Source: Marinifilaceae bacterium
GTDB lineage: Bacteria > Bacteroidota > Bacteroidia > Bacteroidales > Marinifilaceae
DNA: 64,000 bases
Assembly: GCA_016936255.1 (NCBI GenBank)
Contig: JAFGYE010000052.1
Coordinates: forward strand, 62,001 to 126,000
Direction of reading: 5' to 3'
In this document: piece after piece, positions 21,510 through 27,414 of the stretch
Numbering within the stretch: the first letter of the stretch is position 1
Layout of the letters: every line of letters begins with the position of its first letter
The notes under the pieces: model-generated
What the model was told of the DNA's origin: nothing
The model's input: the letters and a program-made list of their open reading frames with translations, nothing else
Database searches by the model: none
Translations under genes and position numbers: made by a program

Positions 21510-22412
21510 ATGGTGCTAAGTAGTAAATTTAAGGGAAGTGGATTGGCTTTATTGGCCACTATCAGTTTTTCAAACATATATATTTTTAGCAAACTGGCGA
21601 TGAAAGATGTTAACCTGTCCTCGTTTGGGGTGCTGTGGTTTGCCTTTGCCCTGCTATACAATTACCTGTACTACTATTTTTTTACAGACAGAAAAAAACT
21701 AAGCTCCTTACCTACAAAATCGAAATTCATTTTATTCCTAATCGGATGCTCCGAAGTCATATCAATGTGTGCTTTCTTTCTCTCGATAAAACTGACCGAA
21801 AATCCCGCAGTAGTTTCATTTCTTGCAAATACCAGTCCCATATTTGTAATTTTCATCGGATTTATTTTTTTGAAAATTAGATATAATTTACTGGCTGTAA
21901 TCGGTATTGCTGTTACTCTTGGTGGCGTTGTTCTAATTAATTACAACAACACTGTTTCTGATTTGGGGAGTTTTGTTACGCCAGCAAGCCTTGCCGCGCT
22001 TATTTTTGCACTATTCTATGGAATAAGTCTGGTGCTTGCCCGATCGGAAATTAACACAATTCCCTCTACGATGATTACGGTATGCCGCTCGCTGTTTTTA
22101 TTTCTGGGATTTGGATTGTATAATCTCTTTATTTTTGAAGTACCACACTACACGGCCGACTCCCTGCTTTACATCAGTATCGGATCCATTTTTGGACCAT
22201 TTTTAGGTGTAACCCTTACCTTTGCCTCCTTAAAATTTGTCGACGCGTCAATAACCACCTTAATTTGTACATCAAGAAGTTTCTTTATTGTTTTAGGAGC
22301 TTTTATTTTTATGAATATTTTGCCTGATAACAATCAGTTACTGGGTGGCATTTGTATCATTTTAGGGATCGTACTCATCACCATTGGAGACATCCGAACA
22401 AAATCGTATTAA
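21510..22412 (+). CDS. EamA/DMT-family transporter
   Basis: 300 residues from the ATG at 21510; an upstream in-frame start at 21441 would lie before the -7 box. Ten hydrophobic segments in two five-segment halves, with FLANTSPIFVIFIGFIFLK in half one and the related TTLICTSRSFFIVLGAFIF in half two, as in EamA drug/metabolite transporters. Inner membrane; likely exporter or importer of small metabolites, substrate unknown. Its last 4 bp overlap the end of the convergent histidine-kinase gene. Confidence 0.82.
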   Translation: MVLSSKFKGSGLALLATISFSNIYIFSKLAMKDVNLSSFGVLWFAFALLYNYLYYYFFTDRKKLSSLPTKSKFILFLIGCSEVISMCAFFLSIKLTENPAVVSFLANTSPIFVIFIGFIFLKIRYNLLAVIGIAVTLGGVVLINYNNTVSDLGSFVTPASLAALIFALFYGISLVLARSEINTIPSTMITVCRSLFLFLGFGLYNLFIFEVPHYTADSLLYISIGSIFGPFLGVTLTFASLKFVDASITTLICTSRSFFIVLGAFIFMNILPDNNQLLGGICIILGIVLITIGDIRTKSY

Positions 22413-24910
22413 TTCAGAACTCTTTTTACTTCGGTTAAAAAATCATTTTTAGTAATTGGCATTGTGATATAGCCATGACATCCTGCATCAACATAACGTT
22501 CTTTCTCCCCTTTTACAGCATAAGCCGTCTGAGCGATTACTTTTATATCCTGACTCCTGTTTTTTATTAAAGCCAGGCAATCTATTGTTGATTTACTCTG
22601 AATGTTCATATCCAGAATAAGTAAATCCGGCACTGTTTTATTCAACATGTCTATCATGATATTCTCATTTGAAGCATGAGAAACAGTAACGTCTTCATCC
22701 TCAAATAATTTTTGCAGGTAAAGAAATGAATTGTAATCCTCCTCTGCAATTAATACCGATTTTTTACTTAGTGACTCCTTGCGTGTTACAATTTGCACAT
22801 CCTCAACACCAATCGTTTCGTTTTTAGAATATGGTAGTGTAAAATAAAAAGTACTTCCTTTCCCGACTTCCGATTCAAACCAAATTTCACCCCCCAGAAG
22901 CTCAATAAGTCCTCTTGATATGCTTAAACCTAATCCTGTTCCATCAGTAAAATGTTCTTCATCTCCTTGTCTGAAACGCTCAAAAATGATATCATGCCTA
23001 TTTTTAGGTATTCCGCAGCCTTCATCTTTCACATATACTTCAATTACTGTATGTGCCAAATATTCCCTAAAACTATATCCAACTTCCACCTTACCCACTT
23101 CTGAAAATTTGATTGCATTATTAAGCAAATTATCCAGAATTTGATGAAACCGATTAGCATCTGTGAAAACAGATAGTCTTTCATACTCTTCAGGTAAATT
23201 CAAAACCAACTCGATATTGGGCTTACTTTCCAACAACACTCCCCTTTTAACCACCTCTATACTGCTTACAAATAATTCGTGCAAATTGGTTTCCACTTTA
23301 TGCACCGCCACCTGATCCAATTCCAATTTGGAAATATCAACAATATCATCAATAAGCTGCAGGAGTCTATTCCCTGAATTTTGAATGATATTTATGTACT
23401 GAGATTTTTCAACATCATCCAATTCTGAATCAACAAGCAATTCAGAAAACCCCATAATTGCATTCATGGGAGTACGTATCTCGTGACTCATATTGGCGAG
23501 AAAAATTGATTTCAACTTATCACTTTCCTCAGCCTTTTCTTTCGCCTTCAATAGTTCTCTTTCAGCTAACTTTATATCTGTAATATCTCTTGAAACACCA
23601 AGAACTCCCAGTAAATTTCCCTCAACATCATACATTGGAGTTTTAATCGTCTCAGTTAGAATTCTATTTCCAGTACTGGCAGAAACGGCCCAATTGGTAA
23701 AACGAACACTCTTTTTGCTATTTAAAACCTCCAAATCTTTTTCCAAATAAAAATCAGCGATCTCCCGCGGATAAAAATCATAGTCTGATTTGCCAATAAG
23801 AGCATCTTTCTTTAAACCATTAAATTTTTCGAAGTTTCGGTTACAAGACAGATAAACTCCATTGAGATCCTTTAACCAAATCATTTCAGGCACAGTTTCT
23901 ATCAGTATTTTTAGATGAGCTCTTTCATTTTCAACCAACGCCATGGTATTTTTACGCAAAGAAATATCGCGGACCATGGCCCAAAATCCCTTGGGTTTGC
24001 CTGTTTCGTCCTTCAACAAATAGATACGCAGTTCAACAGGAATCAAACTTCCATCTTTTCTTATACACTCCTTTTCATATACTCTGGAACTTCCGGATAC
24101 GAGAACCTCTTCTTCCATTATTTTCTGATCAAATTCAAGCCATTTTAAGGGGGTTAAATCATGACAATTCATATGCAGCAACTCGTCAGAGGAGTAACCA
24201 AGCATTTCCCGGTATGCTGTGTTAAATTCGATCACATTTGCATCCATATCCAAAACAACAAATGCATCGTTCATACTTTCGTACAAACGCGAATATTTTT
24301 CCTCTGTTCTACTTAATGCGATTTCATTAGCCCTGTTTTGCAACTGTCTGTTCATGAATAACCCCAACAACATATTTCCAAATGGATAAATCGTTAACAA
24401 AGGCCAGAAAATTTGCAGCAGAGTTGGCATGACTTTTTCTGAAGGCAAAAATACAGAGCAACTGATCATCGCCAAATGAACGGCAACTCCTAAAAGTAAA
24501 TATTTCAACCAATAAGATTTTACGCCTATTTTAGTCCATATCTGTTTCCATAAAACACCTATTAAACCAGAACTGATTATTACCGCAATTCCCATAAACA
24601 TTCCTTCTCCGCCTAAAATAAAACGATAAGTACCCGCAATTAGAATTGCAATAATAGTAGGAATTGCACCAAAAAATAACCCGGAAATAGAAAGGATAAC
24701 TGAACGTGTATCAAAAACGACTCCAAGCGCCATTTCCCACGAAGAAAGCATAAGAACAACACATATAGCGCCTACAATTCCTCCTGCCAATAATTGCTCC
24801 CATATGGACTTAACACCAGTTCTTCTCACCCACAAATAATCATACAACATACTAAACGAAAGCAATATTGCAGTATTCTGTATCAAACTTAAAAACATGG
24901 AATTATTCAT
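22409..24910 (-). CDS. Hybrid sensor histidine kinase: 5TM-LYT, two PAS, HisKA, HATPase, receiver
   Basis: 833 residues from the ATG at 24910; a TTG 24 bp upstream is possible. The N-terminal ~190 residues carry six hydrophobic stretches and the FDTRSVILSISGLFFGAIPT block of LytS-type 5TM sensors. Two PAS domains follow, then HisKA with SHEIRTP (phosphorylated His476), HATPase motifs (DEGCGIP, GTGLGLSIS) and a C-terminal receiver. In the receiver, Asp767 (LILDMNI) and Thr795 are kept, and an acidic pair EED is present, but Met817 stands where receivers have the invariant Lys (YITMPI instead of Y-x-x-KP). Input signal unknown; LytS-type sensors respond to cell-wall or metabolite cues. No partner regulator lies adjacent. 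Confidence 0.87.
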   Translation of the reverse strand: MNNSMFLSLIQNTAILLSFSMLYDYLWVRRTGVKSIWEQLLAGGIVGAICVVLMLSSWEMALGVVFDTRSVILSISGLFFGAIPTIIAILIAGTYRFILGGEGMFMGIAVIISSGLIGVLWKQIWTKIGVKSYWLKYLLLGVAVHLAMISCSVFLPSEKVMPTLLQIFWPLLTIYPFGNMLLGLFMNRQLQNRANEIALSRTEEKYSRLYESMNDAFVVLDMDANVIEFNTAYREMLGYSSDELLHMNCHDLTPLKWLEFDQKIMEEEVLVSGSSRVYEKECIRKDGSLIPVELRIYLLKDETGKPKGFWAMVRDISLRKNTMALVENERAHLKILIETVPEMIWLKDLNGVYLSCNRNFEKFNGLKKDALIGKSDYDFYPREIADFYLEKDLEVLNSKKSVRFTNWAVSASTGNRILTETIKTPMYDVEGNLLGVLGVSRDITDIKLAERELLKAKEKAEESDKLKSIFLANMSHEIRTPMNAIMGFSELLVDSELDDVEKSQYINIIQNSGNRLLQLIDDIVDISKLELDQVAVHKVETNLHELFVSSIEVVKRGVLLESKPNIELVLNLPEEYERLSVFTDANRFHQILDNLLNNAIKFSEVGKVEVGYSFREYLAHTVIEVYVKDEGCGIPKNRHDIIFERFRQGDEEHFTDGTGLGLSISRGLIELLGGEIWFESEVGKGSTFYFTLPYSKNETIGVEDVQIVTRKESLSKKSVLIAEEDYNSFLYLQKLFEDEDVTVSHASNENIMIDMLNKTVPDLLILDMNIQSKSTIDCLALIKNRSQDIKVIAQTAYAVKGEKERYVDAGCHGYITMPITKNDFLTEVKRVLN

Positions 24911-25068
24911 AAATAAAGTAGTAGTAATTTCCAATTACAATAATAGTCAACATAAGAGTGCTTATCTCTTATTTATAAACAATGTATACATCATTTCATA
25001 AATAAAGTTGTATTTTCCTACATCTTTTAGAACAATAAAACTCAATATTGTTGATCGATACGAAACAA

Positions 25069-25095
25069 AAAAGAGCAGACAAAACCTGCTCTTTT
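25069..25095 (-). terminator. Intrinsic terminator after the cDPG synthase gene
   Basis: On the minus strand AAAAGAGCAG and CTGCTCTTTT form a 10-bp stem with a 7-nt loop, followed by T-rich DNA. It lies 28 bp beyond the stop at 25123. Confidence 0.82.
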
Positions 25096-25122: not shown

Positions 25123-26475
25123 TTAAGCCATTTCCTTATTCAGATGAAACTTCTCAGTAAATTGATTTATTACATGAGATAATTTTGGACACCCAATTTC
25201 TTCTAAATCATAATAAACCCGGGTAGTTGGTTTTTTAATATTGATAATTCTATTTAAATCTATTGGTGTTCCAATAATAACAGAATCGCAATCACTGCTA
25301 TTAATAGTTGTTTCCAAGTCTTTAAGTTGTTGGTCTGAGTAACCCATAGCGGGTAAAATATTGCCAATATTTGGATAAATTTCGTAGGTTTCTTTCAACT
25401 TACCTACAAGATAGGGTCGGGCATCAATTTCTTCGGCGGCGCCAAATTTGCGGGCCGCAATTGTACCTGCACCAATCTTCATTTCACCATGAGTTAAAGT
25501 TGGTCCATCTTCTACTATTAAAACACGTTTACCGCGAATCAATTCAGGATGATCAACGGAGATTGGTGAAGCACCATCAATTACAATTGCGTTTGGATTT
25601 GCCAATGCAATATTTTCCCGGACTGTTTGAATTCCTTCCGGAGCTGCTGAATCCATTTTATTAATAACAACAACATCAGCCAACCGGAGATTAACTTCTC
25701 CCGGATAGTAATTCATTTCAGCTCCCGGACGATGAGGATCTGCCACTGTAATTGTTAAATCTGGTTTGTAAAAAGAGAAACCATTATTACCACCATCCCA
25801 TAAAATAACATCACATCCATCCGGATCTTCCTCAGCAGCACGAACTATCGCCTCATAATCAACACCGGCGTAAATTATATTCCCACGAGTAACATGTGGT
25901 TCATATTCCTCCATTTCCTCAACAGTACAATTGTGTTTTTTCAAGTCTTCTAGAGTTGCAAAACGCTGTACTTTTTGAGCAACCAAATCCCCATAAGGCA
26001 TTGGATGACGTATTGCAATCACCTTTAATCCTTTATCCATTAATTCTTCAATAACCTTTCTCGATGTTTGTGATTTACCACAACCAGTTCTTGTTGCTAC
26101 GACCGCAATAGTAGGCTTATGGCTTTTTATCATAGTATCACCAGGTCCTAACAGTTTAAAGTTAGAACCGGCAGCATTAACAATCGCACTAACATTCATT
26201 ACTTTTTTATACGGAACATCCGAATAAGAAAAAACACAATCATCTACACAATGTTCTTTAATCAATTTAACCAAATCCTCTTCTGCATAAATTGGAATTC
26301 CCGTAGGATATAATGATCCGGCCAATTCTGCAGGATATTTTCTCCCATCAATATCAGGAATCTGAGCTGCAGTAAATGCAACTACATTGTACTCTGAGTT
26401 GTCTCTAAAGTAAGTGTTGAAATTGTGAAAATCACGACCTGCAGCACCAATAATAATGACATTCTTTTTAGCCAT
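25123..26475 (-). CDS. Cyclic 2,3-diphosphoglycerate synthase-like NTPase
   Basis: 450 residues. An N-terminal Rossmann-like domain (KKNVIIIGAAGRDFHNFN) is followed by a P-loop at about residues 128-136 (TRTGCGKSQTS), then WDGGNNGFSFYKPDLTITVADPHRPG and VVINKMDSA, the latter like the NKxD guanine-binding motif. This matches the cyclic-2,3-diphosphoglycerate synthetase family first described in methanogens, where it forms cDPG from 2,3-diphosphoglycerate with ATP. Bacterial members are annotated by similarity and their function is unproven. It stands alone between a terminator and a 300-bp spacer; no 2-phosphoglycerate kinase lies in view. Confidence 0.78.
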   Translation of the reverse strand: MAKKNVIIIGAAGRDFHNFNTYFRDNSEYNVVAFTAAQIPDIDGRKYPAELAGSLYPTGIPIYAEEDLVKLIKEHCVDDCVFSYSDVPYKKVMNVSAIVNAAGSNFKLLGPGDTMIKSHKPTIAVVATRTGCGKSQTSRKVIEELMDKGLKVIAIRHPMPYGDLVAQKVQRFATLEDLKKHNCTVEEMEEYEPHVTRGNIIYAGVDYEAIVRAAEEDPDGCDVILWDGGNNGFSFYKPDLTITVADPHRPGAEMNYYPGEVNLRLADVVVINKMDSAAPEGIQTVRENIALANPNAIVIDGASPISVDHPELIRGKRVLIVEDGPTLTHGEMKIGAGTIAARKFGAAEEIDARPYLVGKLKETYEIYPNIGNILPAMGYSDQQLKDLETTINSSDCDSVIIGTPIDLNRIINIKKPTTRVYYDLEEIGCPKLSHVINQFTEKFHLNKEMA

Positions 26476-26775
26476 AACTTCTGTTTCTTAAGTTAAAATT
26501 AGTATTAGGTATGAACACTTAAAATTAAAACTTTAAAGGAGTTTTTCTAATTTTAACAACTTTAAGTTGTACATTCTGAGCCTGTTGCTTAACACGAACA
26601 AAAAAATTGACTTTGTCGCGAAACTGTTATAACTTATTTAGTTTTTCCTTTGTTTGAAAAATATTTAAACTTACATTGATCAATACCAAGCCACCTATCC
26701 AGGCAAAAAGAAAATGCGAAATTGAATCGAAATTATCATTTATTGCTTATTTTCGGGAAACAAGACTGATGAAAC
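26476..26775. promoter_or_regulatory. 300-bp divergent spacer with a 15-bp inverted repeat
   Basis: Between the cDPG synthase-like gene (minus) and acpH (plus). A perfect inverted repeat ACAACTT-T-AAGTTGT lies at 26556-26570, 81 bp upstream of the synthase ATG, suggestive of an operator. No strong -33/-7 pair was found on either strand. Confidence 0.35.
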
Positions 26776-27414
26776 ATGAATTTTTTAGCACATCAATACC
26801 TTTCGGGTGATTCGGAAAAAGTAAAGATTGGGAACTTTATTGGTGATTACATTAAGGGCAATAAATATAAGGATTATCATCCCGAAGTTCAAAAAGGCAT
26901 TCTCCTGCATCGAAATATTGATCACTTCACTGATCGCCATTCAATGGTTTTGCAAAGCTCAAACAGACTTAAAACTGGATATAGCAGATATTCAGGAGTT
27001 GTTGTCGATATGATATACGACCATTTTTTAGCTAAAAAATGGAATCAATATCATACACAGCCTATTTCTAAATTTGTTAATAAAACACATGAAATATTGG
27101 TAAAAAATTATTTGATTCTGCCTCAAAAAGTAAAACTGTTTCTCCCTTTTTTGATTCAAAGCCGACGATTGGAAAGTTACTCTACAACAGAAGGCTTACA
27201 ATCAGCCTTAAAAATCATGTCGCGCAGAACCAGTTTGCCAGATCAAACGGACTATGCAATTAAAACACTTCTCGATCAATACGATGAAATTGAATCTGAA
27301 TTTGACTGCTTCATGAGCGATCTTATTAGCTATGTCCGTGATGAACATCAAATTACCGCAGCAACTCCATACGATTGGCATCTAAACGAAGAAATACGAA
27401 CAACAAAATTGTAA
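26776..27414 (+). CDS. acpH: Acyl carrier protein phosphodiesterase-like (DUF479)
   Basis: 212 residues. The start MNFLAHQYLSGD, then GNFIGDYIKG, LHRNIDHFTDRH and VVVDMIYDHFLAKKW, are the conserved metal-binding blocks of the AcpH/DUF479 family (HD-like fold, His and Asp ligands). In E. coli the enzyme removes the phosphopantetheine arm from ACP. The last 62 bp overlap the 3' end of rodA on the other strand. Confidence 0.83.
   Translation: MNFLAHQYLSGDSEKVKIGNFIGDYIKGNKYKDYHPEVQKGILLHRNIDHFTDRHSMVLQSSNRLKTGYSRYSGVVVDMIYDHFLAKKWNQYHTQPISKFVNKTHEILVKNYLILPQKVKLFLPFLIQSRRLESYSTTEGLQSALKIMSRRTSLPDQTDYAIKTLLDQYDEIESEFDCFMSDLISYVRDEHQITAATPYDWHLNEEIRTTKL

Follow-up and report, generated by a model that had tools for sequence, protein, structure and literature searches.

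The window analysed here, a 64-kb stretch of DNA from a Labilibaculum-like genome, carries on its minus strand a gene whose product resembles cyclic 2,3-diphosphoglycerate synthetase (cDPGS), and the question it raises is what such a protein does in this host. The open reading frame is intact from ATG to TAA and comprises 450 codons. With the P-loop and the NKMD motif preserved and with relatives that are nearly all near full length, it is a real gene, as the sequence-only reading had proposed. The gene and the candidate signals around it are listed below.

25123-26475, minus strand: 450-residue P-loop enzyme, likely an ArcE-type arginine synthetase (intact reading frame, family alignment and AlphaFold model)
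25069-25095, minus strand: intrinsic-terminator-like hairpin 3' of the gene, with 12 pairs, two perfect 10-base arms and a T-rich tail
26583-26594, no strand assigned: palindrome-like block TGTTGCTTAACA upstream of the gene, exact in 10 of 14 aligned same-family upstream regions (by reading)

The gene is solitary at its locus, in agreement with the earlier statement that it stands alone: the downstream neighbour on the same strand (22409-24934) is a histidine kinase by reading of the ORF, and the ORF on its upstream side (26776-27414) points the other way. The hairpin with its perfect arms agrees with the claim that the gene has its own terminator, but a terminator scan returned 2 sites against 1.1 in shuffles, a count that by itself is no better than chance. 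Likewise, promoter-like sites showed no excess over chance (7 found, 8.5 expected). The conserved block TGTTGCTTAACA is a possible operator. A perfect palindrome, ACAACTT-T-AAGTTGT, also lies upstream (26556-26570) and is not exactly conserved among aligned relatives.

The encoded protein belongs to a family that is large and highly conserved in Bacteroidota and haloarchaea. The gene is held by 31 of 59 relatives and by 55 of 296 genomes in a sample of the phylum, its own genome included in both cases. In a genome collection, a relative is encoded by at least 584 pattern-matched stretches, out of 592 listed. Identity to the members in the two genome samples ranges from 53 to 97%, nearly always over almost the full length; one is a 140-residue fragment. 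All seven other same-genus genomes searched hold the gene at 92-97% identity, and Labilibaculum euxinus (97%) is the nearest named relative among the matches listed. Mean column identity is 69% for 31 members picked at no more than about 80% identity, and 99 columns are invariant across 143 distinct family sequences. Three haloarchaeal plasmids carry a member at 47-52% identity; one of these copies, back to back with arcC, is annotated as 'cyclic 2,3-diphosphoglycerate synthase'. The protein is therefore no isolated oddity but one of many conserved relatives, whose genes frequently lie close to those for arginine and carbamoyl-phosphate enzymes.

Sampling of the bacterial members was confined to Bacteroidota, and a genome titled Delongbacteria (G354) drew the Bacteroidota sample again. 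This metagenome-assembled genome (L062/G354, Candidatus Delongbacteria) shares the phylum sample of the window genome and its title looks wrong; Neomarinimicrobiota is a similar kind of title on other close matches. Single-sequence and profile searches of viral contigs returned no relatives, and a phage collection gave one match, on an unannotated and unverified faecal scaffold of 20 kb that may be chromosomal. The copy on a Salinigranum marinum plasmid (L171) is split in three pieces and adjoins an IS1595-family transposase gene.

Gene neighbourhood and co-occurrence

Gene neighbourhoods were read at 80 Bacteroidales-type loci, at 45 loci of other Bacteroidota classes and on four plasmid or phage records. 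Two other-class loci in which ORF calling missed the target (L143 and L149) were dropped, leaving 43, and L001-L020 and L101-L129 were excluded as too short. The neighbour set comprised ArcC, OTC, ATCase/PyrB, PyrI, CarA and CarB within 5 kb. Such a carbamoyl-phosphate gene was found at 25 of the 43 other-class loci, at 23 of the 80 Bacteroidales-type loci and on three of the four plasmid or phage records, all three being haloarchaeal plasmids; by rough arithmetic, about 1-2% of loci would be expected to have one at random. Gene and neighbour lie on the same strand at all 48 linked bacterial loci, and the start of ArcC overlaps the end of the gene by 4 bases at 14 of the 43 other-class loci. 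No such neighbour was seen at 57 of the 80 Bacteroidales-type loci (32 truncated on one side) and at 18 of the 43 other-class loci (4 truncated). In the window genome, an ArcC-OTC pair lies on another contig (L174) and the gene itself is unlinked, as at most Bacteroidales loci.

The arrangements differ between lineages and include glmS - gene - arcC - OTC; gene - OTC - arcC - ATCase; OTC - arcC - ATCase - ornithine aminotransferase - gene; gene - pyrB - pyrI; gene - carA - carB; and gene - arcC, with a divergent arcC in haloarchaea. NCBIfam confirmed one or two representatives each of ArcC, OTC, ATCase, PyrI, CarA, CarB and ornithine aminotransferase. At 15 loci (L131, L134, L136, L140, L153-L159 and L161-L164) the gene is immediately preceded by a glmS-like gene, so named by reading of its sequence. 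One genome (G067) lacks the gene, retains glmS-arcC and carries an ArcA-like gene.

Co-occurrence was scored with arcC called at E < 1e-40 and with ArcA-like genes taken as TIGR01078 matches at E < 1e-30, none of which reaches the curated cut-off. The 296-genome sample contains the gene in 55 genomes, arcC in 45 and both in 43, and the gene is present in 12 of the 251 genomes without ArcC (P = 3e-38, in a calculation that ignores kinship). Among the 59 relatives the corresponding numbers are 31, 42 and 29; inside the order arcC is thus often found without the gene, as 13 of 42 arcC genomes lack it.

The gene fills an ArcA gap among ArcC genomes but is not exclusive with ArcA. It is present in 34 of the 35 genomes of the phylum sample that have ArcC without an ArcA-like gene, and also in 9 of the 10 that have both, the window genome among these. 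Within the order, five of six ArcC genomes without an ArcA-like gene hold the gene, and 12 of the 13 ArcC genomes without the gene carry an ArcA-like one. Since 86 of the 96 genomes with ArcA-like genes (out of 296) are without arcC, the ArcA-like genes may in some genomes encode something other than arginine deiminase.

The window genome carries CarAB in addition to its ArcA-like gene, which scores below the curated cut-off. Of 32 genomes searched for CarB, 27 have a match above the cut-off, and in G133, G317 and G059 the protein comes in two halves. In two genomes, G345 (L186) and G238 (L182), neither CarB (among the 32 searched) nor CarA (among nine searched) was detected; both are given as 99% complete and hold the gene, arcC and an ATCase-like gene beside arcC. 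Carbamoyl phosphate in these two may derive from arginine. In five further genomes (G080, G170, G177, G193 and G300) the CarB matches stop near model position 930 of 1052, the C-terminal part being seemingly absent or diverged; these five hold the gene without ArcC.

Fold, motifs and distance from cDPGS

No Pfam model and no NCBIfam model (June 2026) reaches its cut-off for the window protein. An AlphaFold model built from 29 sequences has a mean pLDDT of 90.4; the N-terminal domain modelled alone, without an alignment, was poor (pLDDT 55). The model indicates a two-domain fold common to the window protein and cDPGS of M. fervidus (8ORK/8ORU). Residues 1-445 match chain residues 2-455 of 8oru with a Z score of 22.2 and 16% identity, and the rmsd of 13.1 arises because the two domains are differently set. 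The Foldseek match to cDPGS has an E value of 1.2e-16 and a TM score of only 0.45. The N-terminal part of the model matches the Rossmann domains of a sugar-nucleotide dehydrogenase (3nkl, Z 13.0) and of Rex (3wg9, Z 12.4).

The model also resembles SIMIBI P-loop enzymes. LpxK, the tetraacyldisaccharide 4'-kinase, likewise has a large P-loop domain at its C-terminus and matches across 282 residues with Z 19.4 and 11% identity, but this match is limited to model residues 89-441 and the LpxK substrate is a lipid. HypB (Z 17.3), UreG (Z 15.9) and dethiobiotin synthetase (3fmi, Z 12.3) are further structural matches. These proteins, like CTP synthase and MeaB, share the P-loop domain and differ in their substrates and extra domains, and the structural matches are partial. 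CTP synthases enter the Foldseek ranking at position 14 (E 8.4e-4); in their chemistry a carbonyl oxygen is phosphorylated and ammonia then displaces the phosphate.

Four motifs were followed across the family.

26425-26448, minus strand: GAAGRDFH motif of the Rossmann-like N-terminal domain (residues 10-17), all 8 residues invariant over 143 distinct sequences
26062-26097, minus strand: Walker A motif or P-loop (residues 127-138, ATRTGCGKSQTS), aligned to 8ork/8oru, with T130 and G131 in place of cDPGS K145 and R146
25780-25800, minus strand: WDGGNN(D) motif (residues 226-232), with Gly at 232 in the window copy
25651-25662, minus strand: NKMD nucleobase-type motif (residues 272-275), with N in 142, K in 143 and D in 133 of 143 sequences

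Sequence comparison places cDPGS at a distance. In phmmer searches the window protein matched cDPGS with E values of 5.7e-4 and 0.013, and the family profile matched three solved cDPGS sequences with E values of 2.8e-10 to 1.8e-6, the next match being HypB (0.0027). According to PMC10690619, the cDPGS P-loop includes K145, R146, K149 and T150, of which K145 and R146 bind 2,3-DPG. In our alignments these four residues correspond to T130, G131, K134 and S135 of the window protein, whose P-loop reads ATRTGCGKS at residues 127-135. The P-loop lysine of cDPGS is hence retained (K134), whereas both 2,3-DPG contacts are replaced, T130 and G131 being found in 31 of 31 aligned members and in all 143 distinct sequences. 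The ADP contact E305 of the M. fervidus enzyme aligns by manual count with D275 of NKMD, and cDPGS has TMCE at this site. The residue mapping covers the P-loop and E305, with E45, D208, E404 and K406 lying outside the span of the alignments.

The cDPGS label is valid as remote homology only. Membership of the cDPGS family fails because T130 and G131 stand in place of K145 and R146 throughout, and this loss of substrate-binding residues overturns the assignment made in the sequence-only reading. A lack of 2-phosphoglycerate kinase supports the exclusion: NF003259 found no match in the window genome (0 of 1) and matched in 5 of 14 control genomes, one of them above the cut-off. The accompanying suggestion of a different product or use is likely to be right.

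At position 232 the family has D in 140 and E in two of the 143 distinct sequences; Gly occurs in the window protein alone (codon GGT, 25780-25782), and congeners at 97% identity do not have it. This Gly232 could be a sequencing error or could mark a tuned or a damaged enzyme. The NKxD position reads NKEN in the haloarchaeal sequence of the alignment and AKCD in that from a phage record.

A probable arginine synthetase and competing readings

The best-supported reading, based on fold, motifs, gene neighbourhood and co-occurrence, is that of an ArcE-type arginine synthetase. We consider this likely, and infer family identity with ArcE from description and context rather than from sequence. According to PMC13260591, arginine synthetase was first described in Thermococcus (Michimori et al. 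2024, as cited there), and ArcE of Thermococcus kodakarensis (TK2200) interconverts arginine, ADP and Pi with citrulline, NH3 and ATP, followed by OTC and ArcC. The same source describes ArcE as standing in for ArcA, complementing it among ArcC organisms, and ArcE with OTC as providing carbamoyl phosphate for pyrimidines in T. kodakarensis. PMC12815258 gives the name arcE to an arginine/ornithine antiporter of Nanosynbacter, which clashes with its use for arginine synthetase.

The neighbours OTC, ArcC, ATCase and ornithine aminotransferase, together with the filling of the ArcA gap, fit the ArcE pathway. Like ArcE, the family replaces ArcA beside OTC and ArcC, is found in archaea and bacteria, and would also feed pyrimidines. 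It goes with ArcC as ArcE does, being present in 43 of 45 ArcC genomes, but ArcC accompanies it in 43 of 55 gene-bearing genomes; in the order sample the latter figure is 29 of 31.

In the mechanism that we propose for Labilibaculum, the P-loop of the C-terminal domain would bind the nucleotide. The amino-acid substrate would probably sit between the two domains, the N-terminal one being Rossmann-like. By analogy with CTP synthase, the forward reaction would phosphorylate the ureido oxygen of citrulline, and free ammonia would displace the phosphate to give arginine. The likely cellular direction is the reverse, in which arginine would yield citrulline and NH3 while ADP (or GDP) and Pi form ATP (or GTP). 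OTC would then convert citrulline to ornithine and carbamoyl phosphate, the latter serving carbamate kinase, with a further ATP, or aspartate carbamoyltransferase for pyrimidines, and ornithine would pass to ornithine aminotransferase.

Several observations count against the arginine synthetase reading. Twelve of the 55 gene-bearing genomes are without ArcC, gene and ArcA-like gene occur together in 9 of 10 genomes with ArcC and ArcA, and 57 of 80 and 18 of 43 loci are unlinked, the type to which the window's own locus belongs. Unlike in the ArcE setting, CarAB and an ArcA-like gene are also encoded in the window genome, whose copy is without the acidic residue 232. The family could match TK1039, a separate T. 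kodakarensis gene labelled cDPG synthetase, instead of TK2200. Should an ArcE model exist in NCBIfam, the lack of any match there would also speak against this reading. Our literature search found no paper stating the family of TK2200, and none on COG2403 or tying cDPG synthase or a predicted GTPase to carbamate kinase.

A further difference concerns the nucleotide. NKxD would rather predict guanine, whereas ArcE makes ATP according to PMC13260591. The motif, with D in 133 of 143 sequences and absent from M. fervidus cDPGS, suits guanine better than adenine and so suggests that the bacterial branch might be a GDP-dependent arginine deiminase/ligase storing energy as GTP, a variant that we regard as tentative and on balance unlikely.

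Among explanations outside arginine synthesis, the strongest is another enzyme or a chaperone at the carbamoyl-phosphate node. It would produce, protect or channel the carbamoyl phosphate that OTC, ATCase and carbamate kinase use, perhaps through nucleotide-driven activation of carbamate or bicarbonate. Dethiobiotin synthetase, which activates a carbamate, is among the structural matches, the recurring neighbours (CarAB and PyrBI operons included) share carbamoyl phosphate, and G345 and G238 have gene and ArcC with no CarA or CarB detected. An ArcE-type enzyme, however, covers the same neighbours as well as ornithine aminotransferase and the replacement of ArcA without a new activity, and ArcE with OTC is itself reported as a pyrimidine carbamoyl-phosphate source in PMC13260591, which makes the alternative rather improbable.

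NKxD, the guanine motif and a trait of G3E GTPases, is present here as NKMD and brings in a metallochaperone of the CobW/HypB/UreG kind, as do the structural matches to HypB and UreG. The Pfam cobW model also matches 30 of 31 members weakly, with E values no higher than 0.1 and the best at 3.6e-7. The cobW score of the window protein (16.3 bits) lies under the Pfam gathering score of 20.7, and G3E membership was rejected on this ground. The recurring neighbours are arginine and carbamoyl-phosphate enzymes, and the full-length structural match is cDPGS with LpxK the next longest, both phosphotransferases; we hold a G3E-type function to be very improbable. Least credible is a true cDPGS making a compatible solute in a mesophile, for which the database label of a relative, the common fold (Z 22.2) and the profile match (E 2.8e-10) speak, against the substitution of K145 and R146 in every sequence, a genome without a 2-phosphoglycerate kinase match (other sources of 2,3-DPG being possible) and recurring neighbour clusters whose named genes include none for 2,3-DPG supply.

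The arginine synthetase reading bears on how the family is named and used. At least one family protein is catalogued as cDPG synthase, a name suggestive of a thermophile solute. This name misleads, and the function is more likely arginine synthetase biology already known from archaea and so not wholly new. If the protein is an arginine synthetase, many Bacteroidota would gain an extra nucleoside triphosphate per arginine, the missing first step would be supplied in ArcC-OTC clusters without arginine deiminase, and G345 and G238, where no carbamoyl-phosphate synthetase was detected, would have a plausible source of carbamoyl phosphate.
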